A DNA stretch of 64,000 nt, from NCBI GenBank assembly GCA_011523655.1, contig WTGH01000067.1, positions 1-64,000 on the forward strand. Reading direction: 5' to 3'. The position numbers and the translations under genes were made by a program. Within the stretch, counting starts at the first letter, position 1; every line of letters begins with the position of its first letter. Shown piece by piece: positions 39,375 to 58,927 of this stretch. The stretch comes from Rhodospirillaceae bacterium (lineage in GTDB: Bacteria > Pseudomonadota > Alphaproteobacteria > Bin65). The notes under the pieces were generated by a model. The model searched no databases. It was not told the DNA's origin and saw only the letters and a list, made by a program, of their open reading frames with translations.

Positions 39375-41804
39375 CTAACCGCGCATGCGTGCGCCGGCCG
39401 GGTCGAACAGCGGTTCTTCGAGAATCCGGGCGGCGCACCGCTCGCCGAGAATTTCGACTTCCAGACGGCCAGGATTTTCCGCCACATCCCGCGGCAGATA
39501 ACCGAGCGCCACCGACTGCTGCGCCACATGGGCGTAGCCGCCGGACGTCACCCGGCCGACGACGGCGCCGTCGTGCCAGATCGGTTCGTCGCGAAACGGA
39601 TCGGCGTCCGATACGTCGACCGCCATGGCGACGAGCCGCCGCGCGCCGCCCTCTTCCTTTTCCCTGAGCGCCGCGTCGCGGCCGATGAAATCGTTCTTCG
39701 CAATATCGACAAAGCGGCCGAGGCCGGCTTCGTAGGGGCCGTAGACCGGCCGGTATTCGAAAGCCCAGGCGCCGAAACTCTTTTCCAGCCTCAGGCTGTC
39801 CAGCGCCCGGAGACCGAAGGGCTTGAGGCCGAGCGGCGCGCCGGCTTCCATGAGCAGGTCGTACACCGCAATCTGGTATTCCGGCGCTATCCAGATTTCA
39901 TAGCCCAAATCGCCGGTATACGAGATCCGGCCGACCAGCGCCGGCGCGGGGCCGATGTCCATGGCGCGGATATCGAGAAAGCGGAAGGCTTCGGCCGAAA
40001 TGTCGGCATCCGTTACGGCCTGCAACAGATCGCGCGCCGCCGGCCCGGCGATCATCAGGCCGACACGGTCGAGGCCGAGCGCGCGCACCGCGACCGAACC
40101 GTCGTCCGGCAAATGCGCTTCGAACCAGCGCATATGGTATTTCTCCGCCGGGCCCGAACCGACGACGTAGAATTCCTCGTCGCCCGTCTTGGCGACGGTA
40201 AAGTCGCCGATCAGCTTGCCCTTCGGGTTCAGCATCGGGCTCAGGACGACCCGCCCCGGCCGCGGCGTCCGGTTGGCCAGAATTTGCGACAGCCAGATTT
40301 CCGCGCCCGGACCGGTCACCGAATATTTCGCGAAGCCGGACGACTCGTAGACGCCGACGCCGTTGCGCACCGCTGCGGCCTCGCGCCCGACATTGGCAAA
40401 ATCGTTGGAACGCCGGAAGCTGACGATGTCTTCCGCCAGTTCGCCTTCGTCGGCGAACCAGAGCGGGTATTCCAGTCCGTAGGCCGCGCCGAACACCGCG
40501 CCCCGCGCCTTGAAGCGGTCGTAGAGCGGCGTGGTGCGCAGCGGCCGGCCGGCCGGCAGTTCCTCATTCGGAAACGGCACGTTGAATCGCCGGCTGTAGT
40601 TTTCCCGCACCTTGGCGTTGGTATAGGCAAGCGTTGCCCAGTCGCCGAAGCGCGCGACGTCCATGCCGAATACGTCGAAACCGGGATCGCCCTCCGTCAT
40701 CCAGTTGGCGAGCGTCAGCCCGACCCCGCCGCCCTGGCTGAATCCGGCCATCACGGCGCAGGCGCACCAGTAGTTCTGCAGGCCGCGGACTGGCCCGACC
40801 AGCGGGTTGCCGTCCGGCGCGAAGGTGAACGGGCCGTTGACGATCTGCTTGATGCCGGCGCGGCCGTAGGGCGGAAAATGCCTGAAGCCGATTTCCAGCG
40901 ACGGCGTGATCCGGTCGAGGTCGGGCGACAGCAGTTCGTGGCCGAAGTCCCAGGGCGTCGTCTTCGGCGACCAGGGCTTGCCGGCGCGCTCGTAGGTGCC
41001 GATCAGCATGCCCTTGCCTTCCTGGCGGGTGTAGATCTCGCCGCCGAAATCGAGGGCGTGCATCATCTGGCCGCCGGTCGATTCGTTAAAAGCGGTAACT
41101 TCCGGAATTTCGTCGGTCAGCAGATACATATGCTCCATGGCGAGCACCGGCAGTTCCACGCCGACCATGCGGCCGACCTCGCGCGCCCACAAGCCGCCGG
41201 CATTGACGACGTGCTCGGCATGGACCGTGCCCTTCTCGGTCACGACGTCCCAGCTGCCGTCCGGTCTCGGCTGCAAATCCTCGACCTTGGTCTGAAGATA
41301 GATCTCCGCGCCGCCGATCCGCGCCGATTTCGCGTAGGCCTGGGTCACGCCCGACGGATCGACATGGCCTTCCACGGGGTCGTACAGGCCGCCGACGAAG
41401 CAGGCGGGATCGATCAGCGGAAACAGCTCACGGGCTTCCTGTGGCGTCACCAGTTCGGTATCGAGGTTCATGTAGCGGCCGATCGCGCGGGCGGTCTTCA
41501 ACCAGTCCATGCGATCCGGCGTGTCGGCCAGTATGACGCCGCCGGTCAGGTGGACGCCGCAGGACTGGCCGGAGATTTCCTCGATCTCCCGGTACAGGTC
41601 GATCGTGTAGCGCTGGAGCGCCGAGACGTCCGGATCGCCGTTCAGCGTGTGCATGCCGCCGGCGGCGTGCCAGGTCGAGCCGCTGGTCAGCTCGGAGCGC
41701 TCGAACAGGGCGACGTCCTTCCAGCCGGCTTTGGTCAGATGGTAAAGCACGCTGGCGCCGACCACGCCGCCGCCGATTACTGCCGCCTGCACATGCGATT
41801 TCAT
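39375..41804 (-). CDS. Dimethylglycine/sarcosine dehydrogenase-like flavoprotein with GcvT-like domain
   Basis: 809 residues. The N-terminal FAD domain begins AAVIGGGVVGASVLYHLTKA; SGSTWHAAGG holds His46, the residue that binds FAD covalently in dimethylglycine and sarcosine dehydrogenases. From about residue 420 to the end it is a GcvT/aminomethyltransferase-like domain, which takes the released methyl group to tetrahydrofolate. The exact N-methyl substrate is unknown. It lies 47 bases behind the MttB-family gene on the same strand, forming a two-gene module. Confidence 0.86.
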   Translation of the reverse strand: MKSHVQAAVIGGGVVGASVLYHLTKAGWKDVALFERSELTSGSTWHAAGGMHTLNGDPDVSALQRYTIDLYREIEEISGQSCGVHLTGGVILADTPDRMDWLKTARAIGRYMNLDTELVTPQEARELFPLIDPACFVGGLYDPVEGHVDPSGVTQAYAKSARIGGAEIYLQTKVEDLQPRPDGSWDVVTEKGTVHAEHVVNAGGLWAREVGRMVGVELPVLAMEHMYLLTDEIPEVTAFNESTGGQMMHALDFGGEIYTRQEGKGMLIGTYERAGKPWSPKTTPWDFGHELLSPDLDRITPSLEIGFRHFPPYGRAGIKQIVNGPFTFAPDGNPLVGPVRGLQNYWCACAVMAGFSQGGGVGLTLANWMTEGDPGFDVFGMDVARFGDWATLAYTNAKVRENYSRRFNVPFPNEELPAGRPLRTTPLYDRFKARGAVFGAAYGLEYPLWFADEGELAEDIVSFRRSNDFANVGREAAAVRNGVGVYESSGFAKYSVTGPGAEIWLSQILANRTPRPGRVVLSPMLNPKGKLIGDFTVAKTGDEEFYVVGSGPAEKYHMRWFEAHLPDDGSVAVRALGLDRVGLMIAGPAARDLLQAVTDADISAEAFRFLDIRAMDIGPAPALVGRISYTGDLGYEIWIAPEYQIAVYDLLMEAGAPLGLKPFGLRALDSLRLEKSFGAWAFEYRPVYGPYEAGLGRFVDIAKNDFIGRDAALREKEEGGARRLVAMAVDVSDADPFRDEPIWHDGAVVGRVTSGGYAHVAQQSVALGYLPRDVAENPGRLEVEILGERCAARILEEPLFDPAGARMRG

Positions 41805-41851
41805 CCGTTCGCTCCGGTTTGCCGCCGGCGCCGGCCGGGCGGCGGTTTCTG

Positions 41852-43402
41852 CTAAAAGTCGGTCGGGACGCCGCCTTCGTCCTTGCGCCGGGCGACGAAG
41901 GCATCGAGTTCTTCGCGGACCGCCGGGTCCATCGGCGGCGCTTCGTACAGCGCCAGCTTTTCCTTGTAGAGCCGGTGCAGATGGTCGGCCGCGGTCGGCG
42001 AGCCGGCGCCTGACCAGGCCTCGTAGTTGCGCCAGTCGGAGACCATCGGGGCAAAGAAGGCGGTCTTGTAGCGCGATTGGGTGTGCTCGGCGCCGAAATA
42101 GTGGCCGCCGGGCCCGACTTCGCGCATGGCGTCGAGCGCCAGTTCGGCCTCGTCGACCCGGAAGGGCTCCAGAAAAGAGGCCACCATGTCCAACAGGTCG
42201 GCATCCAGCACCATCTTCTCGAACGAGGCCTGGAGGCCGCCTTCCATCCAGCCGGCGGCGTGCTTGAACAGATGGGCGCCGCCCATCACCGCGCCCCAGA
42301 GCGAGAACACGCTCTCATAGGCGGCCTGAGCGTCGACCGCGTTGGCCGCGTTGACGTTGGACGAGCGGTACGGCACCCGGTAGCGCCGCGCGAACTGGCC
42401 GCCGACCAGCGCGGATTTCATATATTCCGGCGTCCCGAAGGCCGGCGCGCCGCTGCGCATATCGACGTTCGAGGTAAAGCCGCCATAGAGGAACGGCGCG
42501 CCGGGGCTGTTCAACTGGTGGATCGCCAGACCGGCCAGGAATTCCGCATTCTGCTGTGCCACGGCGCCGGCCAGCGTCACCGGCGCCATCGCGCCCGCCA
42601 GGGTGAAGGGCGTCATCACGACCGGCTGGCCGCGGTCGCCCATGCGCAGGATGCCTTCGACCATCGGCATGTCGAGCCGCAGCGGCGAACTGGAATTGAT
42701 CACCGTGATGACCGAGGGTTCGCGCTCCAGCGTTTCATGATCGACGCCCCGCGCGAGGCGCGACAGCTCGATGCCGTCCAGCACCCGCTCCCGGCCCAGG
42801 CTGTAGGCGTGGATCGGTTTGTCGGTCATGGTCAACGCGGCGTGCAGCGCATCGAGATGGCGCACGCTCGGGTGAATGTCGGTCGGCTCGACCGGGTAGC
42901 CGCCCCACATGTGGATCGCCGGCAGCACCTGCCCCAGGCGCAGGAACTGCTTGTAATCCTCGAAATTGCCGACCCGGCGGCCGCCTTCAAAATCGGCCGC
43001 GTTGGGCGTGCTACTCACTGCGCCGAAAACCAGCCGGTCGCCGCCGAAGGTGAGGGTGCGCTCCGGGTTGCGGCAAAAGAATTTGAATGTCTCCGGCGGT
43101 TTGCCGATCTGCGCCTCGACAAGATCGGACGGGAAGCGGACGCGGTTGCCGTCCGGCGCCACATCCGCGCCTGCGTCCTTGAGGATCGCCTTCGCCTCGT
43201 CGTGCAGCAGGTCGATGCCGATTTCCTGGAGCACGGTCAGCGCCGTCCGGTGGATCGCTTCGAGTTCGTCTTCCGAGACCGCGGGCACCGGATCGAACAG
43301 CCGGCGCGGTTGCGGCCGGATTGTGGGCTCCCGGGCTTCAGCCGGAACCGCATCGCCGCCGCGCCGGCGTCTGCCGCTGCGGCCGCGTCTTTCGGAGGGC
43401 AT
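41852..43402 (-). CDS. MttB-family methyltransferase, non-pyrrolysine (copy 1)
   Basis: 516 residues of the trimethylamine methyltransferase (MttB/COG5598) family. There is no in-frame amber codon, so this is the non-pyrrolysine branch, which includes glycine-betaine methyltransferase MtgB. Conserved blocks include TPFTLAGAMAPVTLAGAVAQ, GGFTSNVDMRSGAPAFGTPE and HAAGWMEGGLQASFEKM. Such enzymes move a methyl group from a quaternary amine to a corrinoid protein, but no corrinoid-protein gene is in the window. AAAGGA precedes ATG 43402. It starts an operon with the flavoprotein and is divergent from the selenoprotein gene. Confidence 0.85.
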   Translation of the reverse strand: MPSERRGRSGRRRRGGDAVPAEAREPTIRPQPRRLFDPVPAVSEDELEAIHRTALTVLQEIGIDLLHDEAKAILKDAGADVAPDGNRVRFPSDLVEAQIGKPPETFKFFCRNPERTLTFGGDRLVFGAVSSTPNAADFEGGRRVGNFEDYKQFLRLGQVLPAIHMWGGYPVEPTDIHPSVRHLDALHAALTMTDKPIHAYSLGRERVLDGIELSRLARGVDHETLEREPSVITVINSSSPLRLDMPMVEGILRMGDRGQPVVMTPFTLAGAMAPVTLAGAVAQQNAEFLAGLAIHQLNSPGAPFLYGGFTSNVDMRSGAPAFGTPEYMKSALVGGQFARRYRVPYRSSNVNAANAVDAQAAYESVFSLWGAVMGGAHLFKHAAGWMEGGLQASFEKMVLDADLLDMVASFLEPFRVDEAELALDAMREVGPGGHYFGAEHTQSRYKTAFFAPMVSDWRNYEAWSGAGSPTAADHLHRLYKEKLALYEAPPMDPAVREELDAFVARRKDEGGVPTDF

Positions 43403-43621
43403 CGGTTTCCTTTCGTTTCTCGTCCCCCGTTGGCCGAACAACGGGTGGCGCGCCGGATTAGACCAAATTTCCGCTGCGGTCATGCCGAAAGTGCAGGGTC
43501 GCCGCGCGGGCTTGCCCCGAGAGGGTTTGGAGGGAGGGTTTGGAGAAAGGGTTGCCGCTTGCCGGCGGTTCGGCGTCCCGCTACCTTGCCGCCATCGCAG
43601 CCACACTGAGGAGGGTTGCCG

Positions 43622-44752
43622 ATGAGCAGCCTGAATTTCGACGCCGCGCCCCTGCCAATCAGAGCCGACATCGCGGAAGCGTTGCCGCAGGTCTGGGCCC
43701 GGATCGGCGAGCCGGGAACCTGGCTGACCGCGCAGGAACGGGTCGCCGTCGCTGCAGAAAGCAGGAACGCACGGTATTGCCGCCTGTGCGCCGAGCGCAA
43801 GGAGGCGCTCTCGCCCTATGCCGTGCAAGGCGAACACGATTCTCTCGGCGACCTGCCCGACGACAAGGTCGAACTTGTCCACCGGATGATGACCGATCCG
43901 GCGCGCATCGCCGCTCACTGGTTCGAGGCGCTGAAGGATGGCGGCCTGCCCGAGACCGAGTATGTCGAGATCGTCGGCGTGATCGCCTGCACCGTCGCCA
44001 TCGACACCTTCTGCCGCGGAATCGGCATGGCGCCGCCGCCCTTGCCGGAACCGCAGGACGGCGCGCCGTCGCACGAAACGGTTGGCGAGGAACACCTCAA
44101 CCGCGGACTTGCCTTTGCACCGACCCTGGACCCGTTCGTCGACGGTCCGCTCCAGAAGGAGTTCTTCCCGGCCGGCCCGCCGACCGCCGCGCATATCCGG
44201 CGGGCGCTCTCCTCCGTGCCCGATACGCAGCGGGATTTCTGGCGCATCGCCAACGTGCTCTACATGAACGGGCTGCAGATGCGCGATTTCTCGACCGAGT
44301 ACCGCGCCATCACCCATGCGCAGATCGAGCTGGTTGCCGGCCGGGTCTCGGCCATCAACCAGTGCGTCTACTGAACCACCAGCCATGTGGCCCTGCTCCG
44401 TGCGAGCGGCGAATATACTGGCGACGACTACGATCTGAGCGCGGTTCTGGGAGATTCCGGCGAGGATACCGGCATACCGCACGCCGATGTCCTGATCCAA
44501 CTGGCCGAAACGGCAATCGAATTTGACGACGAAGCGACGGCAGCGACCCGCGAAGCGGTGATCGAACGGATGGGCGAAGCCGCCCTGGTCGATGCCGCGG
44601 CAATCGCGGCCAACTTCAACGCCATCGACCGGGTCGCCGACGCGATCGGTATTCCGCTCGAGGAAGAGAAGGCCGCGATTTCCGCCGATTTCCGCGCCGA
44701 ACTTGGGATCGACGAATTCGGCCGGGCGAGCCTGCCGGCAGCGGCGGAGTAA
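43622..44752 (+). CDS. AhpD/CMD-family selenoprotein with in-frame UGA (Sec251)
   Basis: One frame from ATG 43622 (GAGGAGG 7 bases upstream) to the TAA at 44750-44752, read through a single TGA at 44372-44374: 376 residues with selenocysteine at 251. Context is AINQCVY-U-TTSHVALLR. It fits the AhpD motif E-X11-C-X2-C-X3-H as Glu236, Cys248, Sec251, His255, so Sec replaces the second catalytic Cys. The N-terminal half is a second CMD-like repeat with YCRLC (Cys53, Cys56) but no matching His. AhpD-family enzymes act as peroxidases or disulfide reductases; the substrate here is unknown. The selenium genes are adjacent. Annotation software will probably split it into two ORFs (250 and ~121 residues). 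The alternative is a pseudogene with a Cys-to-stop change. Confidence 0.85.
44372..44374 (+). other. UGA recoded as selenocysteine
   Basis: This TGA falls where AhpD homologues have the second Cys of CxxC. The frame continues for 125 more codons that keep the family pattern and then ends in TAA. No other stop interrupts it. Confidence 0.82.
44393..44409 (+). promoter_or_regulatory. Candidate bacterial SECIS hairpin
   Basis: CTGCTC (44393-44398) pairs with GAGCGG (44404-44409), with one G-T pair, around the loop CGTGC. The loop begins 24 bases after the UGA and has a G at its second position. Bacterial SECIS elements are expected within about 16-37 bases of the UGA with a G among the first two loop bases, so it fits. 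SelB would bind it. Folding was done by eye. Confidence 0.6.
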
Positions 44753-44770
44753 GACGTCCCCCTTCATCCG

Positions 44771-44801
44771 GCCCGGGTCGAAACACGGTTTCGGCCCGGG
44801 C
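44771..44801. terminator. Bidirectional terminator between the selenoprotein gene and selD
   Basis: A 14-bp stem (44771-44784 with 44788-44801, one G-T pair) around ACG, in the 53-base gap between two converging genes. CAATCCTATT follows on the plus side. The position strongly suggests shared transcript ends. Confidence 0.65.
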
Positions 44802-44805
44802 AATC

Positions 44806-47022
44806 CTATTCGAGCCGAATAGCGGGCTTTTCCGCCTCTCTTTCGGTCGCGTGGCCGATGTCGGCGGCATCCGGATATCCGGCCTGCCGCAGCGCCTCGA
44901 CGCACGCTTCCGCACTGTCCGCCGGCACGGCTGCGAGCAGACCGCCGGCGGTCTGCGGATCGGCGAGAAAATGCGGCACAACGCCTTCGCATGCCGCAAC
45001 CAGAATCGCCCGGTTGGCCGGATGGAGCGTGCTGGCATGGCCGGCGGCAAGCAGGCCGGCGGCGCCGGGCAGCAGCGGCAGCGCGGCCTCGTCGAGCACG
45101 ACGTCGCAACCCGACGCTTCGAGCATTTCCAACAGGTGTCCGCCCAGGCCGAACCCGGTTACGTCGGTGCAAGCCCGCGCGCCCTGCCGCTGCAAGACAG
45201 CGACCGCAGCATCATTGCTCGCCAACATGCTCCTGAGCGCCGCTTCGACATCGCGGCCTCTGGCGGCGCGCGCCATTTCGGCCGCCAGCAAGACACCTGT
45301 CCCCAGCGCCTTTGTGAGGATCAGCCGGTCGCCCGGCCGCGCGCCGCCCTTGCGCCACGGCGCACCGTCGCAAACCGCTCCGTTGATCGTCAGTCCTACC
45401 GCCATTTCGGCGCCTTCGGCGGTATGCCCGCCGATCAGGACCGCGCCTGCCTCTCCGAGACCGCGCAGCACGCCGCGCAGCAGCTGCTCCAGGTCGCGTT
45501 CCACGATGCCGGGCGCCGCGAACGGCAGCGTGACCGAGACCAGCGCGGAGACCGGCGCGCCGCCCATGGCGTGGATATCGCCCATGCAATGGTTGGCGGC
45601 GATCCGGCCGAACAGGTACGGATCGTCGATAAAGGCGCGAAACTGGTCGACGGTCTGGTACAGAGATCCCTCCGCCGGCGCAGCGACCGGCGCAGCGTCG
45701 TCCGGATCGTCCAGCGCCAGCGTCCGGGAGGTTTCCGGATCGGCGCGAAGCCGGTCGAGCACAGCGCTCAGGATCGCCTGGGGCACCTTGGCGCCGCAGC
45801 CGCCGCAGCGCATGGCTTCTGCCGCCGGATCTGCCGCCGGCGCGCCGGTCATGGCAGGCAGGTCCGCGCCGTAGCGCGCCATCCAGCGCCGATCGATCCG
45901 GTCCTTCCAGCGCCAGACCCAGCCGCCCTCCGACGCCAGGACGCTCTTCGACGCCACCGCCCTCTGGTCGCCCAGCGAAATCAGGGCCAAAACGCGGCGC
46001 TGCGGCCGGAACGGCTGCAGCGATTCTCCGCGGGCAGCGCGGCGCAGATTTTCGGCGAGCACCGGTCCCTGGCGGACGGCGTAGACTCCCGATTTCGGCA
46101 GAGCGGCCGAATAGAAGGCGGCGCAGTCGCCGGCGGCGAACACCGCATCGTCGGATACGGATTGCAGGGTCGGACCGACCTTCAGGAAGCCGCGGCCGTC
46201 GGTTGCGAAACCGGTTTCGCCCACCCAGGGCGCTGCGCCGCCCTGGGTGACGAGGATCGCCGCGTCGTGCTCGAAGGCCCGGCCCGACGCACACAACACG
46301 CGGCCGGGTTCGACCGCGACCGCCGTTTCGCCGGTTTCGACGGCGATGCCCTTCCGGCGTAACGCAGCCAGCACGCGGCGGCGGACGCCCGCGGCATGTC
46401 CCGGCATGATTTCCGGGGTCAGCGACAGGATCGTGAACAGGGGACTACCCGGGCGATTTTTTTCTTTATTTTCCGACTGTTCCAGAAGTTTGCGCATACG
46501 GTGCTGCAATGCCATCGTCGCTTCGACGCCGCCGACGCCCGCGCCGATGACGACAATGCGGACCATCCCGTCCTGCCGCACCGCCAGCGCCTCGACCTCG
46601 GCCCAACGCCTCAGGAAAGCCGGGACCGGTTTCAGAGGAATCGCGTGTTCTGCGCCTTCGATCCCGCCGGATTCCGGGACCGAGCCGATGTCGATGCTCA
46701 ACAGGTCGTAGGAGAGCGGCGGCCGGCCGACGAGCAGCACCCGGCGCGCCGCACGGTCTATTCCCGTGGCCCGGTCGACGATCAGCCGGGCACCGGCGAA
46801 ACGGCACAGCTGGCGCAGATCGATATTGCAGTCGTCGAAGCCGTAATGCCCGGCCAGATAGCCTGGCAGCATCCCCGAATAGGGCGTATCGACCGGCGTC
46901 GAGACCAGGGTGAGGCGCACGCCGGGCTCCGGCTTCATGCCGAACTGGCGCACGACCTCGACATGGGCGTGGCCGCCGCCGACCAGCACGATATCGGTCT
47001 CGATGGGGAATGCCGGGAGCAC
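44806..47022 (-). CDS. selD: Selenide, water dikinase fused to NADH dehydrogenase-like domain
   Basis: 738 residues. The N-terminal ~385 residues are an FAD/NAD-binding oxidoreductase like type II NADH dehydrogenases (IVLVGGGHAHVEVVR, VVIGAGVGGVEATMAL, AAGDCAAF). From about 400 the protein is SelD, which makes selenophosphate from selenide and ATP. The catalytic pair is Cys409 and Lys412 in CGGCGAKVP, so SelD itself uses Cys, not Sec. The fusion is a known SelD architecture; the flavin domain may deliver reduced selenium. An AT-rich stretch (46457-46477) encodes ENKEKNR inside the first domain. The tRNA-Sec gene is 32 bases upstream on the same strand. Confidence 0.92.
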   Translation of the reverse strand: MLPAFPIETDIVLVGGGHAHVEVVRQFGMKPEPGVRLTLVSTPVDTPYSGMLPGYLAGHYGFDDCNIDLRQLCRFAGARLIVDRATGIDRAARRVLLVGRPPLSYDLLSIDIGSVPESGGIEGAEHAIPLKPVPAFLRRWAEVEALAVRQDGMVRIVVIGAGVGGVEATMALQHRMRKLLEQSENKEKNRPGSPLFTILSLTPEIMPGHAAGVRRRVLAALRRKGIAVETGETAVAVEPGRVLCASGRAFEHDAAILVTQGGAAPWVGETGFATDGRGFLKVGPTLQSVSDDAVFAAGDCAAFYSAALPKSGVYAVRQGPVLAENLRRAARGESLQPFRPQRRVLALISLGDQRAVASKSVLASEGGWVWRWKDRIDRRWMARYGADLPAMTGAPAADPAAEAMRCGGCGAKVPQAILSAVLDRLRADPETSRTLALDDPDDAAPVAAPAEGSLYQTVDQFRAFIDDPYLFGRIAANHCMGDIHAMGGAPVSALVSVTLPFAAPGIVERDLEQLLRGVLRGLGEAGAVLIGGHTAEGAEMAVGLTINGAVCDGAPWRKGGARPGDRLILTKALGTGVLLAAEMARAARGRDVEAALRSMLASNDAAVAVLQRQGARACTDVTGFGLGGHLLEMLEASGCDVVLDEAALPLLPGAAGLLAAGHASTLHPANRAILVAACEGVVPHFLADPQTAGGLLAAVPADSAEACVEALRQAGYPDAADIGHATEREAEKPAIRLE

Positions 47023-47054
47023 CGCTTCAGGCCGCGGTTCCGGGCGGGAGAGGT

Positions 47055-47151
47055 TGGCGGAAGAGGGTGGGAGTCGAACCCACCAGACACGCGCTGGCGC
47101 GTCTCAACGGGTTTGAAGCCCGCGCGGCCCACCGGGCGCCGATCCTCCTCC
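47055..47151 (-). tRNA. selC: tRNA-Sec (anticodon UCA)
   Basis: 97 bases with CCA encoded. An 8-bp acceptor stem (GGAGGAGG pairing with CCTCTTCC, one G-T), discriminator G, anticodon loop CTTCAAA with UCA (47114-47116 on the plus strand read as TGA), a long variable arm (GACGCGCCAGCGCGTGTC) and a T arm GGTGGGTTCGACTCCCACC identify selenocysteine tRNA. It lies between selB and selD in one orientation. Confidence 0.95.
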
Positions 47152-47231
47152 GCCGGTCCGCCAATGGGTCGGGCAGTGCTAGCACGGAACGGCCGCAACC
47201 GGAAACGCCCGCATCCGATCCCATCCGCCGA

Positions 47232-49166
47232 TCAGCCACGGGCGGCGTCCCCGAAGACCTCGACGGCAGGCCGGCGGATCACGCGCTCGTTGCCCGCCCG
47301 CCGGGTGAAGCCCGCCCGGTCGAAATATTCCAGCATCTCGACGCTCAGGTTACGGCCCAGCCCGGACCAGTCACGGAAATCGGCCACGGTGAACCGGTCG
47401 CCGCCGGACGAGGCGAGCCCCGTTTCGGCCGCATTTGCCAATGTTTCCAGTGCTTCCGGAGTCAGGAAGCGGTTCTTCGAGACCTGCATGACCAGCCCGG
47501 CCGCCTGGGCCCGCTTGAAGAAGCGCGCTGCTTCGTTCCCGGCGATGCCAAGCGCTTCGGAGACCTCCCACACCGTGCGTGGCCGGCCCGACGCCGTGAG
47601 CGCCGGTTCGATCCGGGACCAGAGCCTTGCGTCGCGCGGTTCGAGTTCGATCCGCCGTCCGGCGAGGACGATGCGTTCGCCGCGCCGCTCGGCGATCCCG
47701 TCGCGTATCAGCCGGTCGAGCGCCGCATCGATGCACGCGGCAAGCGGACGGCCGGGCAACAGCCGGGGCAGCGCCGCGGCAGGCAGGCCGGACTCGCTGT
47801 TCCGCCCCTCCGCACGTCCGGTCAGCGCCGCCCGGATCGCTTCGGCAAGACCGGCGAGATGGCGGTCCAGGATGGCCGCGTGCCGTTCGCCGCTGCCGAC
47901 GCGCACCAGTCCCGGCGCCTCGAGTCCGGCCAGTTCCATTTTGGTCTGGTTTCGGTTGCGGGCGAAAGCGGTGAGATCGACGCCGCCGGCAGCAATATCC
48001 AGTTGCGCCGCCAGGGCTTCGGCATGGTTCGGGCGGCGCTGCGCCCGGACCATAGCGAGGCGCTGCGGCGTCGCCCGGCCGCGCTGCGGACCGTGGCAGT
48101 CCAGCACCGTGCCGCCGCCGATCGTGCGTCTCGCAGACTGGTCGCGCAGGATGACCGCGTCACCCCGGCAGACGCAAATCCCGCGGTCGAGCACGAGCTG
48201 CGCAAGCGCCCGCTCGCCCGGCGCCAGCTTACCCGCTTCGAGCAGCGCGACCCGGCCGGGAATATCGGCCGTTCCGGCATGGACATGAACCGGCGTCCAG
48301 TGGCGCAGCGGCCGGGCTTCCGAAGCGAGCAGCCGCAGGTCGATGTCGAGCCGGCGGCTGACCGATCGCAGGCCGGGCGCAACCAGCCATTGTCCGCGGC
48401 CGATTGCAGCCCGGTCGACATCCGCGCCGGCCAGGTTGACCGCGCAGCGGTCGCCGGCCCGGGCCTCGGCGGCCGGCGCATCCTGCACCTTGAGGCCGCG
48501 CACCCGCACTCCGATCCCCTTCGGGCCGGCGGGACTGACCGCCAGCCGGTCACCCGCCTTGAGGATCCCGGACTGCACCAGGCCGGTCACGACCAGACCG
48601 GCCCCGCCGACGATGAAGCTGCGATCGATGGCCATGCGGAAGCCGCCGCATGCCGGTTTTTCGACAGCCCGGAGAGCTCCGATCGCCTCGGTAAGGCGGT
48701 CGATTCCCGCACCGTTCGTCGAGGACACCGCCACGACCGGCGCTTCGGCCAGGCCGGTCGGCTGCAACAGGGCGCGGGTCTCGGCGACAACCTCGTCCAG
48801 CCAATCCGCTTCAACAAGGTCGGTCTTGGTGATCGCGACGATGCCGGTGCGCACGCCGACCAGATCGAGAATTGCCAGATGTTCCCGGGTCTGGGGCATC
48901 GGCCCGTCGTCGGCGGCGACGACCAGCAGAGCGGCGTCGATGGCGGTCACGCCGGCGAGCATATTGCGGATGAACTTCTCGTGGCCGGGCACATCGACGA
49001 AACCCGTCGTCTCGCCGGGCCGCAGCGCATCGGTGTAGGCAAAACCGAGATCGATGGTCAGACCGCGCCGTTTCTCCTCCGGCAGGCGGTCGGTATCGAT
49101 TCCGGTGAGGCGTTTCAGCAGGCTGGTCTTGCCATGATCCACATGGCCGGCGGTCGCGATAATCAT
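47232..49166 (-). CDS. selB: Selenocysteine-specific elongation factor SelB
   Basis: 644 residues. The N-terminal GTPase has the P-loop GHVDHGKT (7-14), the switch region DVPGHEKFIRNM and the guanine-specificity motif TKTD; EF-Tu-like domains follow. The C-terminal ~250 residues are winged-helix repeats that bind the SECIS hairpin, ending with DFRDWSGLGRNLSVEMLEYF. It brings Sec-tRNA to UGA. ATG 49166 gives the family start MIIATAGHVDHG and a 4-base ATGA overlap with selA; an ATG at 49181 would add five residues. Confidence 0.95.
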   Translation of the reverse strand: MIIATAGHVDHGKTSLLKRLTGIDTDRLPEEKRRGLTIDLGFAYTDALRPGETTGFVDVPGHEKFIRNMLAGVTAIDAALLVVAADDGPMPQTREHLAILDLVGVRTGIVAITKTDLVEADWLDEVVAETRALLQPTGLAEAPVVAVSSTNGAGIDRLTEAIGALRAVEKPACGGFRMAIDRSFIVGGAGLVVTGLVQSGILKAGDRLAVSPAGPKGIGVRVRGLKVQDAPAAEARAGDRCAVNLAGADVDRAAIGRGQWLVAPGLRSVSRRLDIDLRLLASEARPLRHWTPVHVHAGTADIPGRVALLEAGKLAPGERALAQLVLDRGICVCRGDAVILRDQSARRTIGGGTVLDCHGPQRGRATPQRLAMVRAQRRPNHAEALAAQLDIAAGGVDLTAFARNRNQTKMELAGLEAPGLVRVGSGERHAAILDRHLAGLAEAIRAALTGRAEGRNSESGLPAAALPRLLPGRPLAACIDAALDRLIRDGIAERRGERIVLAGRRIELEPRDARLWSRIEPALTASGRPRTVWEVSEALGIAGNEAARFFKRAQAAGLVMQVSKNRFLTPEALETLANAAETGLASSGGDRFTVADFRDWSGLGRNLSVEMLEYFDRAGFTRRAGNERVIRRPAVEVFGDAARG

Positions 49167-50608
49167 GGCGGGCACGGCCATGCGAGGCTGTCGATCTGCC
49201 CCAGCAGCGTCTCCGGCTTCTCCAGGCAGCGCATGTCGAGCCAGAAGGCGCCCTCCCCGACCCGGCCGATCGCCGGCACCGGCAGGGCGCGGAACGCCGC
49301 TGCGAGGTCGCGGAGCATCCGGCCCGCGGCCCTCTTACCCATTTGCGGGCGTCCGGCTTGCGGCGTCAGGCGCACGGCAACGCTGGGCAGCGCCTCGGCC
49401 GGCAAGGCGCCGCTGCCGATCTGGCTGAAGCAATCGATGGCCTCGACCTGCCAGCCATCCGGCGCGACAGGCTCCAGATGTACGGCGACACGTTCGGCGA
49501 CAACGCGGATATCCGGCAGCGGCCGGGCGAGCCAGCGCAACGTCGGGACGGTCTCCGCAAGCTGTTCGGGCTGACTGTAAAGGGCGAGGGTCGCGTCGAG
49601 CGCCGCGATCCTCAGCTTGTCGAGCCGGAACGCCCGGTGCATCGGGTTTTTCTTTATTCGGGCAACCAGATCCGCACGGCCGGCGATCACCCCGGCCTGG
49701 GGCCCGCCGAGCAGCTTGTCGCCGCTGAAGGTCACCAGATCGGCGCCGCTGGCCAGCGCTTCCTGCACCGTGGGTTCGTGCGGCAGGCCGAAGCGATCGA
49801 GATCGACCAGCGTGCCGCTGCCCAGATCGATGCAGAAGGGTATGCCGCAGCGCCGGCACAGGGCGGCCAACTCCTTTTCCGGCACCGCCTTCGTGAAGCC
49901 GATCACGGCGTAATTGCTGGTATGCGCCTTCAGGACGAGGGCCGGACGGGCCGCCATCGCCTCTTCATAGTCCTTCAGATGTGTCCGGTTGGTCGCGCCC
50001 ACCTCGACCAGCCGGGCGCCGGCGCGGCGCATGATGTCGGGCAGGCGGAAGGACCCGCCGATCTCGACCAGTTCGCCGCGCGAGACCGGCACGGCGCGCC
50101 GGTTGGCCAGCGTGTTCAGCACCAGCATGACAGCAGCGGCGTTGTTGTTGACAGCCGTGGCCGCCTCGGCGCCGGTCAGGGAGCGGATACGGGCTTCGAG
50201 GCGGCCGCCGCGGTCGCCGCGCTTCCCCGCCGCCAGATCGTATTCCAGATCGACCGGCTGTCGCGCCGCCCGGGTCATCGCCTCGATCGCAGCTTCCGGC
50301 AGCGCCGAACGGCCGAGATTGGTGTGGACGACCGTGCCGGTCAGGTTGAGCACCGGCCTGAGCGACGGGGCCATTGCCGCGGCGACATGGGCAACGACAC
50401 GGTCCGCCAGCCCGTCCGCATCGATGCGGCCCCCGGCGAGCAGGCGGCTTCGCGCCTCGTCAAGCACCGTGCGCGCCGCCTCGACCACGCAACTGCGACC
50501 GACCCGGTCGGGCAGGTCCGCCAGCCGCACATCCTGCAACAGCCGGTCCACACTCGGCAGGCCGGCGGGCACGGTAATCGGATCGGCACTGGCGTCGGTC
50601 TGCGTCAT
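49163..50608 (-). CDS. selA: L-seryl-tRNA(Sec) selenium transferase
   Basis: 481 residues, a PLP enzyme converting seryl-tRNA(Sec) to selenocysteyl-tRNA(Sec) with selenophosphate. The PLP lysine is Lys298 in FSGDKLLGGPQAGVI; NLTGTVVHTNLGRS (about 88-101) and AHTSNYAVIGFT are family landmarks. ATG 50608 was chosen because the longer frame adds 60 residues without similarity. It begins the selA-selB-selC-selD run on the minus strand. Confidence 0.95.
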   Translation of the reverse strand: MTQTDASADPITVPAGLPSVDRLLQDVRLADLPDRVGRSCVVEAARTVLDEARSRLLAGGRIDADGLADRVVAHVAAAMAPSLRPVLNLTGTVVHTNLGRSALPEAAIEAMTRAARQPVDLEYDLAAGKRGDRGGRLEARIRSLTGAEAATAVNNNAAAVMLVLNTLANRRAVPVSRGELVEIGGSFRLPDIMRRAGARLVEVGATNRTHLKDYEEAMAARPALVLKAHTSNYAVIGFTKAVPEKELAALCRRCGIPFCIDLGSGTLVDLDRFGLPHEPTVQEALASGADLVTFSGDKLLGGPQAGVIAGRADLVARIKKNPMHRAFRLDKLRIAALDATLALYSQPEQLAETVPTLRWLARPLPDIRVVAERVAVHLEPVAPDGWQVEAIDCFSQIGSGALPAEALPSVAVRLTPQAGRPQMGKRAAGRMLRDLAAAFRALPVPAIGRVGEGAFWLDMRCLEKPETLLGQIDSLAWPCPP

Positions 50609-50730
50609 GAGCGGCGGCTTTAGCACGGTTTTCCGGCGATAGGCAGATGGATCGGGACAGCCAGGCTGCGCTACCGGCGGCGTTTCCGGCATGCTAAGGT
50701 GGTTCTGTCGTTTCCTGCGGTGAGCGAATC

Positions 50731-51066
50731 GTGCCCCGTTCCGTCCTGGCCTTGTCCTGCGCAATGCTCGTGCTGCTGCTTCCGGCAACGGCGCTCGCCG
50801 ACGCCATCGACGGGCATTGGTGCCACGAGGACGGGCGCCGGATGACCATCGACGGGCCGGCCATCGTGACGCCCGGCGGCACGGCGATGACCGGCGACTA
50901 TGACCGGCACGGTTTCGTCTACGTTATCCCACCGGGCGAGCCGGGCGCCGGCAAGCGGGTCACCATGCAACTGATCGACGAGTATACGGTGATCCTGCGC
51001 ACCGGCCCCGACTCAGCGAAGAGCGTCGAGCAGGTCTGGAAACGCTGCGCGAAACCGATGGCGTAG
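50731..51066 (+). CDS. Small exported protein, function unknown
   Basis: 111 residues. A GTG start leads to a signal peptide (SVLALSCAMLVLLLPATALA, cleavage after ADA or ALA). The mature part has two Cys (HWCHEDG and WKRCAKPMA) likely to form a disulfide, and a compact beta-rich pattern (GDYDRHGFVYVIPPGE). No assigned family was recognised. It is divergent from selA and convergent with the MttB copy 2 gene. Confidence 0.6.
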   Translation: MPRSVLALSCAMLVLLLPATALADAIDGHWCHEDGRRMTIDGPAIVTPGGTAMTGDYDRHGFVYVIPPGEPGAGKRVTMQLIDEYTVILRTGPDSAKSVEQVWKRCAKPMA

Positions 51067-51077
51067 CCGAGCCCGCT

Positions 51078-52655
51078 TCAGGCCGCCGCTTTCATGCTGC
51101 GGCGCGGCAGGACGATATTGAATCGCTCGCGGATCGCCGCGTCGACCGGCTCCGGGATGTGGTCCGGATATACGGTTGCCAGAATGCGCCGCTTTTCGGC
51201 GAGCGCCTTCTCGACCAGGTCCGGCTTGCCTTGTTCGAGCCATTCCTTCGGGCTGCTGCGGTCGCCGACCTCGGGATAGACATATTCGGACTGCATCAGC
51301 GACAGGGTCTGCGGATGGCCGAGATAATGGCCCGGCCCCTCGAGGCAGACGCTTCGGATCACCTCGAGCGACAGGGTCTCGTCGGTGACCTCGATGCCGC
51401 GGACGCAGCGCAGGCACTGGCCGATCATGTCGTTGTCGATCAGCAGGCTCTCGTGACAGAAGCTCAGCAGCGAGGCGTGCATACCGACACTCTCGTAGAC
51501 CAGGTTGAGGCCGGATAGCCCCGCCATGACATTGGCGACGCCGCGCTCGTAGCCGGCCTGCATGTCCGGCGCCTTGCTGTCGGACATGGCGCAGGCCGAT
51601 CCGCCGGGCAGGTCGTAGAAACGCGCCATCTGCCCGCAGGCGGCGGTGAGCAGCGCCTGTTCGCCCGAGCCGCCGGACATGGCGCCGGTGCGCAGGTCAG
51701 AGACGAAGGGCCAGGTCCCGAAAATCGCCGTGTGGCCCGGCTTCATCGCGTTGACATAGACCAGCCCGGCCAGGCATTCGGCGACCGCCTGGGTCACCGC
51801 ACCGGCGAGCGCGGCCGGCGCCGTCGCCCCGGCCTGCCCGGCCGAGAGCAGCAGGACCGGCATCCCGCCCCGGATCACGGTCTCCATGACCCGGCAGGAT
51901 TCGGTGGCGAATTTCAGCGGCGGGACGACGAAGCAGTTGCTGTTCGAAACGAATGGCCGCGCCCGCCAGGCCGCCTCCGACCCGGCGACCATGTGGAGCA
52001 TGTCCAGCCCCATCTGCGTCCGCTCCGGCGAGGTGAAGGAGGTGCCGATATGCTTGGTCGTCCCGGCGACCGAAGCGTAGAGGGTGTTGACGTCGAGATC
52101 GGTCGGGTCCTCGGTGTCGCGCGTCGTGAGCGGCCGCTGGAAAAAGTGGATATTGTCCAGCACCTCGACCATGCGGGCGGCGTCGAAGAGATCCTGCACC
52201 GTCGGATCGCGGTTCACGCGCGCCTCGACGTCGTAGACATGGACCGCCGCGCCCGCGGTGCCGTAGTGGACGCGGCTGCCCCCCGGGCGGATATCGTGCT
52301 TCGGATCCTGGCCGTGCAGGGTGATGTCCCGCGCCGCCTTCGCCAACATGTCCTCGACCAGCGCCGGCGGGAAACGCAGCCGTCCGTCGTCGCCCTGAAC
52401 GGCGCCGGCCGACGTCATCATTTCGACGCCGCTCTCCGGCGCGTCGGCGAGGCCGATCTCCTCGAGGATGTGCAGCGCCGCCCGGTGGATCCGTTCGACC
52501 TCGGCGTCGGTCAGCGCCTTGTAGCGCCCGCCTTCCAGGCCCGCCCGGACCGGCCGGATATCTTCCGCCAGCGGGGCGGCCCGCAGGGCCCGCCGGGCTT
52601 CCCGGCCGCCGGCCCGGCGCCCTGCCCGCTCTTTTGCGTTCCGATCGCGAGACAT
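51078..52655 (-). CDS. MttB-family methyltransferase, non-pyrrolysine (copy 2, divergent)
   Basis: 525 residues, the most divergent of the three MttB-family proteins here. It shares the overall pattern: VERIHRAALHILEEIGLADA, LTTRDTEDPTDLDVNTLYAS, SAGQAGATAPAALAGAVTQA and MSGGSGEQALLTAACGQMAR. ATG 52655 is preceded by GGGGAGG at a 6-base spacing; a GTG at 52694 overlapping the upstream stop is less likely. Last gene of a five-gene minus-strand operon that starts at 60574. There is no in-frame amber codon. Confidence 0.85.
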   Translation of the reverse strand: MSRDRNAKERAGRRAGGREARRALRAAPLAEDIRPVRAGLEGGRYKALTDAEVERIHRAALHILEEIGLADAPESGVEMMTSAGAVQGDDGRLRFPPALVEDMLAKAARDITLHGQDPKHDIRPGGSRVHYGTAGAAVHVYDVEARVNRDPTVQDLFDAARMVEVLDNIHFFQRPLTTRDTEDPTDLDVNTLYASVAGTTKHIGTSFTSPERTQMGLDMLHMVAGSEAAWRARPFVSNSNCFVVPPLKFATESCRVMETVIRGGMPVLLLSAGQAGATAPAALAGAVTQAVAECLAGLVYVNAMKPGHTAIFGTWPFVSDLRTGAMSGGSGEQALLTAACGQMARFYDLPGGSACAMSDSKAPDMQAGYERGVANVMAGLSGLNLVYESVGMHASLLSFCHESLLIDNDMIGQCLRCVRGIEVTDETLSLEVIRSVCLEGPGHYLGHPQTLSLMQSEYVYPEVGDRSSPKEWLEQGKPDLVEKALAEKRRILATVYPDHIPEPVDAAIRERFNIVLPRRSMKAAA

Positions 52656-52690
52656 GGTTTGCCTCCCCGCAGCCTGGCGGCCGGCGCCGC

Positions 52691-55153
52691 TCACATGCGC
52701 ACCCGCTCCGCAGCCGGGTCGTACATCGGCTTGAGCGAAACATCGGCGGCGACGCGCGCGCCGGCAATCTCGATTTCGTAGCCGGACGCGAGTTGCGCCT
52801 CGGCGCTTTCACCGTCCGGGCACGGCACATAGCCGAGGCCGACCGCGCCGCCCAGCGCGTGGCCGTAGTTCCCGGACGTCAGGTAGCCGACCATCTCGCC
52901 GTCGCGCACGATCGGCTCGTTATGGAACAGCAGAGGCTCCGGATCGCGCAGCCGGAATTGCAGCAGGCGCCGGGACAGGCCCTCGTCGCGTTTGCGCAGG
53001 ACCGCGTCCCGGCCGAGAAAGTCCGGCTTGCGGGTGCGCACGGCGAAGCCGAGTCCGGCCTCCAGCACGTGATCCTCGTCGGTGATGTCGTGGCCGAAAT
53101 GGCGGAAGGCCTTTTCGATCCGGCAGCTGTCCATCATGTGCAGGCCGCACAGTTTCAGGCCGTGGGGCGCCCCCGCCTCTTCCAGCGTCTCGAAGACATG
53201 GGCGGCCATGTCCGTCGAAACGTAGAGCTCCCATCCGAGTTCGCCGACATAGGAGACCCGGTGGGCGCGGGCGAGGCCCATGCCGATCTCGATCTCGCGC
53301 ACCGTGCCGAACGGAAAGGCCTCGTTCGACAGGTCGGCCGGCGAACAGGCGTTCAGCACGGCGCGCGCTTTCGGCCCCATCACGCACAATACCGCCTCGC
53401 CCGCCGTGACATCGGTGACGACGATATGGGCGCCCTCCGGCGTGTGGCGGCGCAGCCAGGCGAGGTCGCGCTGTAAGGTCGCCGCCGGCGTGACGACCAG
53501 GAAAGCCGTATCGGACAGGCGCGCGACCGTCAGGTCCGCCTCGATCCCGCCGCGGTTGTTGAGCCACTGGGTGTAGACCAGCCGCCCCGGTTCCACCGCA
53601 ACATCGTTAGCGCAAATCCTGTTGAGCACCGCTTCGGCGTCCCGGCCCTCGACCCGCAGCTTGCCGAAGGACGTCATGTCGAACAGGCCGACGCCCTCGC
53701 GGACCGCCATATGCTCGGCGCGGGAATGGTCGAACCAGTTCTGGCGCTGCCAGCTGTAGCGGTATTCCGGCGTGACGCCGTCCGGGGCGAACCAGTTGGC
53801 GCGCTCCCAGCCGGCGGTTTCTCCGAAGCAGGCGCCGCGCGCCTTCAGATGCCCGTGAATCGGCGAGCGGCGGACGCCGCGGGCGCTGGCCGGCTGGCGG
53901 TAGGGGAAATGGTCGGCATAGAGCAGGCCGAGGGTTTCGCTCACCCGGCGTTTCAGATAGTGGCGGTTTTTCTGGAACGGCTGGACCCGCCGGATATCGA
54001 CTTCCCACAGATCGAACGGCGCTTCGCCGTCGGCGATCCACTGGGCCAGCGCCATCCCGGCGCCGCCGGACGAGACGATGCCGATGGAGTTGTAGCCGGC
54101 GGCGACCCAGTAGCCGCGCAACTTCGGCGCCTCGCCCAGATAGTAGCGGTCGTCCGGCGTGAAGCTCTCGGGACCGTTGAAGAAGGTGTGGATGCCGGCC
54201 TCGCCGAGCAGCGGCATGCGCGCGACCGCCTGCGCCAGGATCGGCTCGAAATGGTCGAAATCCTCGGGCAGCTGGTCGAAGCAGAAGTCCTCCGGGATGC
54301 CGTCCATGCCCCAGGGCTTGGCGACCGGCTCGAAGGCGCCGAGCAGCATCTTGCCGGCGTCTTCCTTGTAATAGGCGCATTCGTCCGGCACGCGCAGCAC
54401 CGGCAGGGCACCGAGGTCCGGGATCGGCTCGGTCACGATGTAGAAATGCTCGCAGGCGTGGAGCGGGACCGTCACGCCGCTCATCGCACCCAGTTCGCGC
54501 GCCCACATGCCGGCGCAGTTGATCACGATGTCGGCGGCGATCTCGCCCCGTTCCGAATCGTTTTCACCGTCGCGCTGCCACGACACGCCGGTGACACGGC
54601 CGTTCGCCTGCGAAACGCCGGTGACCTTTACCCCTTCGGCCAGCAGGGCGCCGTTCTGCCGGGCGCCTTTGGCGAGTGCGAGCGCAATGTTCGCCGGGTC
54701 GCACTGGCCGTCGAGCGGCAGGTGAACGGCGCCGGTCATGTCCGACACGTTCAGATGGGGATAGAGCGCCCTGGTTTCCGAAGGCGTGATTTCCATCACG
54801 TCGACATCGAAGGCGCGCGCCAGCGAAGCCTGGCGGTAGATTTCCTCCCTGCGCTCGTCGGTCAGCGCCACGGTGATCGACCCGTTCTGGCGCATCCCGG
54901 TCGCGATGCCGGTCTCTTCTTCGAGCCGGACGTAGAGATCGGCCGAATATTTCGCCAGCCGCGTCAGATTAAGGCTGGCCCGAAGCTGGCCGATCAGGCC
55001 GGCGGCGTGCCAGGTCGTGCCGCAGGTCAGCTGCCTGCGCTCCAGCAGGACCACGTCTTTCCAGCCCAGCTTTGCAAGATGGTAGGCGACCGAACAGCCG
55101 GAAACGCCGCCGCCAATGATGACGGCCCGGGCCTGCCGCGGCAGCGCCGCCAT
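52691..55153 (-). CDS. Dimethylglycine/sarcosine dehydrogenase-like flavoprotein with GcvT-like domain
   Basis: 820 residues in the same two-domain order as the 39.4-kb copy: FAD domain (AVIIGGGVSGCSVAYHLAKL), the covalent-flavin site CGTTWHAAGL with His49, and a GcvT-like C-terminal half from about residue 430 (SYVGELGWELYVSTDM). Its start is 3 bases after the previous gene's stop, indicating tight coupling with the sister flavoprotein at 55157. Confidence 0.88.
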   Translation of the reverse strand: MAALPRQARAVIIGGGVSGCSVAYHLAKLGWKDVVLLERRQLTCGTTWHAAGLIGQLRASLNLTRLAKYSADLYVRLEEETGIATGMRQNGSITVALTDERREEIYRQASLARAFDVDVMEITPSETRALYPHLNVSDMTGAVHLPLDGQCDPANIALALAKGARQNGALLAEGVKVTGVSQANGRVTGVSWQRDGENDSERGEIAADIVINCAGMWARELGAMSGVTVPLHACEHFYIVTEPIPDLGALPVLRVPDECAYYKEDAGKMLLGAFEPVAKPWGMDGIPEDFCFDQLPEDFDHFEPILAQAVARMPLLGEAGIHTFFNGPESFTPDDRYYLGEAPKLRGYWVAAGYNSIGIVSSGGAGMALAQWIADGEAPFDLWEVDIRRVQPFQKNRHYLKRRVSETLGLLYADHFPYRQPASARGVRRSPIHGHLKARGACFGETAGWERANWFAPDGVTPEYRYSWQRQNWFDHSRAEHMAVREGVGLFDMTSFGKLRVEGRDAEAVLNRICANDVAVEPGRLVYTQWLNNRGGIEADLTVARLSDTAFLVVTPAATLQRDLAWLRRHTPEGAHIVVTDVTAGEAVLCVMGPKARAVLNACSPADLSNEAFPFGTVREIEIGMGLARAHRVSYVGELGWELYVSTDMAAHVFETLEEAGAPHGLKLCGLHMMDSCRIEKAFRHFGHDITDEDHVLEAGLGFAVRTRKPDFLGRDAVLRKRDEGLSRRLLQFRLRDPEPLLFHNEPIVRDGEMVGYLTSGNYGHALGGAVGLGYVPCPDGESAEAQLASGYEIEIAGARVAADVSLKPMYDPAAERVRM

Positions 55154-55156
55154 CGC

Positions 55157-57604: not shown

Positions 57605-57622
57605 AGTCGCGTTCCCTCGTCC

Positions 57623-58927
57623 CTATCCCAACACCGAGAAGCTGCTCTCGGGATTGATCTCGCGTCTGCGGGAGAAGAATCCCACATCCAGCGCCCGCCC
57701 GATATAGGGCAGGGTGAATTGCAGCGGGCTGGTATCGTGATCGTTACCGGCTTCGCAATAGTCGATCAGCGCGGCCATCATCTTGCCGGCGATTGCCGCA
57801 TTCTTGAACTGGTTCCCGCTCGATCCGCACGCCATGTAGAAACCCGGCAGCGCGGACTTGTCGTAGATCGGAATCCAGTCGTCCGACACGTCGTACAGGT
57901 CGACGACGCCCTTCATGCGGCTGGGTATGCCAAGCGTCGGCAGCCGCTGGGCGTAGCGGTAGGCCTGGTGCGTCCACTGGTCGGTGAAATTCGTGTCGTA
58001 GTCGTCGGGATCGACCCAGTCGCGCGGATCGCATTCCGGATCCTCGCTGCCGATCAGGATGTTGTTGCCGTGCTCGGGCCGCGAGTAGACGCTGATGTCG
58101 CTGTCGGACATGACGAAGCCGTCAGCCTCGAAATCCATGCCTTCCGGCGCCGGAATATGGACCACTTCCTGTTTCAGCGCCCGGGTGCTGATCGTCATGT
58201 CGCCGGTGACGCCCGCCATCTCGTTGAGCTTGTAGGACGCCGGTCCGCCGACATTGACCACAACCGGCGCGCGGATTTCCGCGCCGTCCGCCAGCCGGAC
58301 GCCCGCCACGCGGCCGCCCTGCTGCAGGATTTCCGTCACGCGCGCATTGAACCGGAAGCCTGCGCCCTTCGCTTCCGCCGCCCGGCGCAGGTTATGCGAC
58401 GCGAGCTGGGGATCGGTGATGTAGCCGGCGGTCGGCCAGAAGACCGCCGCCTTGACCGCGCCGCCGGTCGGTTCGCCGAAGCCGGCGTCGTCCATGCGCT
58501 TGGCCGGCGCATGGCAGGAAAGGTCGAATTGCGGCAGCCGGCGCAAAATGGCCTCGGCGTCCCAATCTTCATACGGAATATCAAGTTCGCCGCAGTATTT
58601 CTTGTGTTTACGAAGAAAATCGTTCGCCTCGACTGCCATGACCAGTGCGCCGCACTGGACGAAACGCGCCAGGCCGGCCTCGTCGGCGACTTCGAGATAG
58701 TCGGCCCAGTCGCGCCAGTAGAAATAGCCTTCGTAGGCGAAGGCGGTGCCGTCCAGCGTCGAATAATGCACCCGGATGATGGCGCAGGAGCCGGCGGTCG
58801 AGCCCATGCCGGCGTCGCCGTTGGCGTCCACCGACACCACCCGGTACCCGGCCTTGGCGAGTTCGAAAGAGGTAGCGGCTCCGATGATTCCGGCGCCGAT
58901 AACGATAACGTCTGCTGTATCGGCCAC
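57623..58927 (-). CDS. FAD-dependent amine oxidase (sarcosine oxidase / DadA-like)
   Basis: 434 residues of the DAO family: VIVIGAGIIGAATSFELAKA is the dinucleotide fold, and NVGGPASYKLNEMAGVTGDM follows later. It lacks the WHAAG covalent-flavin site and has no GcvT-like half, unlike the three long flavoproteins, so it probably acts as an oxidase or as a partner that removes the final methyl or amine group. Second gene of the operon, between MttB copy 3 and the long flavoproteins. Confidence 0.85.
   Translation of the reverse strand: MADTADVIVIGAGIIGAATSFELAKAGYRVVSVDANGDAGMGSTAGSCAIIRVHYSTLDGTAFAYEGYFYWRDWADYLEVADEAGLARFVQCGALVMAVEANDFLRKHKKYCGELDIPYEDWDAEAILRRLPQFDLSCHAPAKRMDDAGFGEPTGGAVKAAVFWPTAGYITDPQLASHNLRRAAEAKGAGFRFNARVTEILQQGGRVAGVRLADGAEIRAPVVVNVGGPASYKLNEMAGVTGDMTISTRALKQEVVHIPAPEGMDFEADGFVMSDSDISVYSRPEHGNNILIGSEDPECDPRDWVDPDDYDTNFTDQWTHQAYRYAQRLPTLGIPSRMKGVVDLYDVSDDWIPIYDKSALPGFYMACGSSGNQFKNAAIAGKMMAALIDYCEAGNDHDTSPLQFTLPYIGRALDVGFFSRRREINPESSFSVLG

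Follow-up and report, generated by a model that had tools for sequence, protein, structure and literature searches.

The window analysed here, a stretch of 64,000 nucleotides from a Rhodospirillaceae genome, contains a gene of 376 codons (43622..44752, + strand) that is best explained, with a probability of roughly 0.93, as encoding a cytosolic selenoenzyme of the NCBIfam family NF041238. The protein would consist of two AhpD-like helical domains, with the UGA at codon 251 read as selenocysteine (Sec) and the C-terminal CxxU as the catalytic site. This explanation is drawn from comparisons of sequences and predicted models, which cover codon conservation, the constraint on a SECIS-like hairpin, the selenium machinery, the fold, and a set of five proton-relay residues; expression and selenium incorporation of the window protein itself are presumed from them. 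The frame runs from the ATG at 43622 to a TAA ending at 44752 and, in sequence and translation, has a single in-frame TGA (44372..44374, U251). The TGA lies in the motif E236-X11-C248-V-Y-U251-T-T-S-H255, where U stands for the second Cys of E-X11-C-X2-C-X3-H; the CxxU active site, C248-V-Y-U251-T-T-S-H255, occupies 44363..44386 (+). A Shine-Dalgarno sequence, AGGAGG, is found at 43609..43614 (+), and the same-genus orthologues have this sequence or a similar purine-rich one at the corresponding position. Gene calling with Table 11 breaks the gene into frames of 252 and 121 aa. A sequence-only reading of the window had described one TGA in a 376-codon frame at E-X11-C-V-Y-[TGA]-T-T-S-H and had expected automated annotation to truncate or split the gene; its coordinates and motif are exact, and the split occurs as expected.

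The protein matches NF041238 (AhpD_rel_CFYUT, 'alkylhydroperoxidase-related (seleno)protein') with 460.7 bits, against a curated cut-off of 175 bits, over model positions 1-356 of 357, and it carries the CxxU with an in-frame UGA (CVYU-TTSH). A 2026 review lists NF041238, with the motif CxxU, as a selenoprotein family (PMC13188914) and equates it with the 'hypothetical protein 1' found in 2005 by the Sargasso Sea survey (PMC1088965). Therefore, the window gene belongs to a known selenoprotein family, and its product is a further member of a family already catalogued. The earlier statement that Sec-containing AhpD-like proteins had been reported is thus borne out, and the exact family is curated. 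The window protein shares with the family, as these sources describe it, the full-length match, the CxxU motif, the in-frame UGA, and the SECIS-like hairpin, and there is no essential difference from their description; the two-domain fold and the lack of a Cys form among the genomes sampled are additions to it. The present analysis thus adds quantified evidence for the cis element, the finding that no sampled member is a Cys form, and a Sestrin-like double-domain fold. Members of the family are found in Alpha-, Beta-, and Gammaproteobacteria, Myxococcota, and Acidobacteriota. The C-terminal half is also covered by Pfam CMD (PF02627; 27.1 vs. a cut-off of 23) and by the AhpD core model (TIGR00778; 30.3 vs. 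27.8). The score against the peroxidase-related enzyme model TIGR01926 (52.3 bits) is below its cut-off of 81.8.

The TGA is fixed among the relatives, far beyond what chance would give. It is present at the Sec codon in all 80 reference-genome loci (80/80), and exactly one TGA is found in every match above the family cut-off in four overlapping genome samples (33/33, 51/51, 16/16, and 39/39). The codon is never TAA or TAG, and TGA is kept at it across several phyla. Residue 251 is invariant, as are E236, C248, Y250, and H255, across 62 members. Among seven same-genus orthologues, dN/dS is 0.06-0.16 before the TGA and 0.05-0.22 after it. Two observations had been named beforehand as telling against a selenoprotein, homologues that end at this codon and decay of the downstream frame; no such homologues were seen, and the frame after the TGA shows no decay, with dN/dS of about 0.1 on either side. 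Global recoding of UGA was ruled out, as TGA serves as a normal stop codon in most of the window's other genes. No Cys homologues were found among above-cut-off matches in the relatives, the class, the phylum, the gammaproteobacterial sample, or Myxococcota. For 'hypothetical protein 1', the 2005 report does mention some homologues with Cys (PMC1088965). These were not recovered above the family cut-off in the present samples, and they are probably more distant AhpD-like proteins. No viral copies of the family were found.

The UGA is followed by a SECIS-like hairpin, CUGCUC-CGUGC-GAGCGG (44393..44409, +), which spans nucleotides 22-38 when the U of UGA is taken as the first and has G as the second base of its loop. 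It is thus a stem-loop just after the UGA with a small apical loop containing G, the criterion for bacterial selenoproteins as it appears in the Sargasso Sea report (PMC1088965). In a set of 77 non-redundant members, which share under 85% identity, the numbers of members that retain each of the six pairs of the stem are 71, 72, 76, 77, 77, and 77. Codons +8 to +11 show almost no synonymous variation, and the constraint eases to both sides of them: CTC is used in 77/77 (background frequency 27%), CGT in 66/76 (14%), GCG in 50/50 (44%), and AGC in 71/75 (39%). A sub-branch with AGG for CGT gains one more A-U pair. Against a null of synonymous codons, the energy of the hairpin has a z of -17.7 and an overlapping window -7.6, while the strongest stabilising window outside the hairpin reaches -4.9. 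Note that the hairpin is visible by the comparative test only, as the window sequence folded alone gives a z of -0.14 against shuffles. A search of the hairpin against Rfam gave no match.

The genome has selA, selB, selC, and selD, i.e., the machinery required of a host of bacterial selenoproteins. All of these are found next to the selenoprotein gene on the opposite strand. A fusion gene, ndh-selD (pyridine nucleotide-disulphide oxidoreductase and selenophosphate synthetase; 44806..47022, -), is convergent with the selenoprotein gene, and it is followed by selC, encoding tRNA-Sec (47059..47151, -; RF01852, 72 bits), selB (47232..49181, -), and selA (49163..50608, -). The distance of 53 bases to selD given in the sequence-only reading is correct when measured to the 3' end of ndh-selD. 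Among 385 alphaproteobacterial genomes, 27 carry the family and 54 carry selB, and all 27 of the family-bearing genomes carry selB (p about 8e-27, a value that overstates the evidence because related genomes share descent, although there is still no exception). A family gene is found within 6 kb of selB in 7 of these 27 genomes, which represent four taxonomic families. The claim of a CxxU AhpD/CMD selenoprotein is supported by the family model, the fixed TGA, and the SECIS-like constraint, as well as by purifying selection past the TGA, the strict co-occurrence with selB, and the adjoining sel genes.

Several other features were observed in this neighbourhood. selC is located between selB and ndh-selD and is neither nested in selB nor overlapping with it; nested or overlapping selC is reported for some Alphaproteobacteria, according to the review (Mukai 2021, cited in PMC13188914). 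The divergent neighbour of the selenoprotein gene (41852..43501, -; start codon uncertain) belongs to the MttB superfamily and, on present evidence, stands outside the selenium system. Around the sel operon, the region 39375-58927 includes genes for large FAD oxidoreductases, which by eye resemble dimethylglycine/sarcosine dehydrogenases, and non-Pyl MttB-superfamily genes, a combination that suggests methylated-amine catabolism. A match to Rfam PYLIS_3 at 51488-51587 (-, 38.6 bits) was rejected as a pyrrolysine signal and taken as homologous coding sequence because the host MttB-like gene has no in-frame TAG.

The sequence-only reading had assigned the protein to AhpD/CMD. The family assignment stands, but the predicted structure has two AhpD-like domains and not one. 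The AlphaFold2 model, built on 62 members, has a pLDDT of 95.1 and a pTM of 0.94. Over the whole chain, the model is most similar to human Sestrin2 (Z 16.9, rmsd 3.4, 237 residues, 10% identity), with model residues 1-345 aligned to residues 75-477 of the chain. Single-domain AhpD-like chains match the C-terminal half (residues 161-356; 44102..44689, +) at Z of about 13. When the N-terminal half (43622..44080, +; own model pLDDT 96.1) is compared alone, the first 15 entries are all AhpD-like (Z 6.4-8.2), and the top unrelated chain has Z 3.4; profile comparison of the two halves gives a modest E of 0.0023. The whole-chain match to Sestrin2 and the AhpD-like N-terminal half therefore indicate that the modelled chain comprises two AhpD-like domains in tandem, as Sestrin2 does. 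The N-terminal half lacks the catalytic E and H. It has a conserved CxxC (C53, 43778-43780, and C56, 43787-43789, +), which is invariant in 41 members of one alignment (A3) and absent from a paralogue on another contig (C17) of the same genome; the N-terminal CxxC is therefore not essential to every member.

Human Sestrin2 (5t0n, 5dj4) has two AhpD-like domains in a single chain (PMC4674687), and the window protein, as modelled, shares this arrangement and aligns with it end to end. The two differ in that the catalytic Cys125 of Sestrin is in its N-terminal domain, whereas the Sec site of the window protein is in the C-terminal half, and in that Sestrin lacks the second Cys. No Sestrin match was found in Pfam (PA26) at E up to 1, nor one among PDB sequences at E up to 10. 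Because there is no sequence similarity to Sestrin, the likeness of the model is taken as shared architecture, and no claim is made of homology or of a common origin for the fused form. Single-domain AhpD-like proteins (6k40, 2prr, 2oyo, 3c1l; TIGR01926) resemble the C-terminal half in fold and proton-relay residues, but they have CxxC and one domain where the window protein has CxxU and two. M. tuberculosis AhpD (1knc, 1gu9) has the same E-X11-C-X2-C-X3-H, and its attacking second Cys corresponds to Sec here; its chain has one site, forms a trimer, and lacks Sec.

The proton relay of PA0269 is formed by E36, C48, Y50, C51, and H55 (PMC3141380). The corresponding residues of the window protein are E236, C248, Y250, U251, and H255, which make up the AhpD-like/CMD set (E, C, H/Y, C, H). 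M. tuberculosis AhpD attacks AhpC with its second Cys, Cys133 (PMC6626918). In the proposed mechanism, SelB and tRNA-Sec would decode the UGA at codon 251 under the direction of the hairpin 22-38 nt downstream, and Sec would take the place of the second Cys of AhpD, the exposed residue that makes the attack. Its selenolate may then reduce an organic hydroperoxide, a similar oxidised substrate, or a disulphide partner. C248 would resolve U251 as a selenenylsulphide, to be recycled by a dithiol of the lipoyl, thioredoxin, or glutaredoxin type. The N-terminal CxxC could assist in the recycling, and a relay role for it is a guess.

The same selenoprotein could instead be a thiol-disulphide adaptor that serves an AhpC-type peroxiredoxin and not small molecules. 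M. tuberculosis AhpD acts in this way through its second Cys (PMC6626918), and several AhpC/TSA proteins are encoded in the genome, one of them by a gene with a TGA; such a role nevertheless seems rather improbable, as no ahpC gene lies beside the window copy and the fused double domain is unlike the AhpD trimer. Also unlikely is a function other than that of a peroxidase, e.g., reductive dehalogenation, as in Bmp8, or a CMD-like step in the catabolism of small organics. Bmp8, a dehalogenating CMD homologue (PMC7918430), is a debrominase with the same fold (6ohi, 6ohj; Z 12.2-12.4). Close relatives of the window gene come from sponge-derived assemblies, and several paralogues adjoin catabolic genes, named by eye. 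Organobromines are common in sponges. The fold alone, however, reveals no function, the proton-relay set fits AhpD peroxidases, and the adjoining catabolic genes vary between clades. That the TGA is a true stop, so that the locus is either a pseudogene or a pair of genes and its downstream part decays or is expressed by itself, has a negligible probability and was rejected computationally: separate frames of 252 and 121 aa are what Table-11 calling yields, but the TGA is conserved across phyla and never exchanged for another stop, the hairpin is constrained, the family match and the fold are full-length, and dN/dS stays low on both sides.

The family is wide and duplicated, seemingly never has Cys, and has genes that are split by Table-11 calling. 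It may, as a tentative and rather doubtful extension, represent an obligate selenoenzyme class: a bacterial double AhpD with the Sestrin architecture, diversified into up to five copies per genome, in which Sec has not been exchanged for Cys and which would catalyse a reaction poorly supported by thiols. Such a reaction might be, e.g., a reductive dehalogenation or one in which bulky organic hydroperoxides are reduced. A strict requirement for Sec would make the family a good case for what selenium does beyond sulphur, and the Sestrin-like architecture offers a testable idea of its function.

The genome has four copies of the family. The other three are 34-45% identical to the window copy, and each has a TGA. 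In the tree, the four copies belong to separate, old clades, with the C17 copy on a long branch. No fixed operon partner was found for the other three copies, whose neighbours are conserved only within the genus. Several paralogues are found beside catabolic genes, e.g., those for Mo-hydroxylase, amidohydrolase, CoA ligase, and thiolase, as judged by eye from their sequences. Next to the C17 copy, which is divergent in sequence, is a gene for a Cys-type CMD protein (CLHCQSH; L037:10255-10794, -), and relatives of this protein also occur close to further members of the family (L043, L044, L114). At another locus (L097:8001-10195), two family genes are in tandem, each with its own TGA. As for other selenoproteins, TGA was found within the matched domain in none of the eight molybdopterin oxidoreductases of the genome (e.g., FdhA). 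A Prx-like (AhpC/TSA) gene on contig C64 (L150:722-1252, +; match C64:13590-13943) has an in-frame TGA in the motif HW-U-PFC (UxxC), lies some 2 kb away from a gene for a molybdopterin oxidoreductase, and is a candidate for the fifth selenoprotein of the genome.
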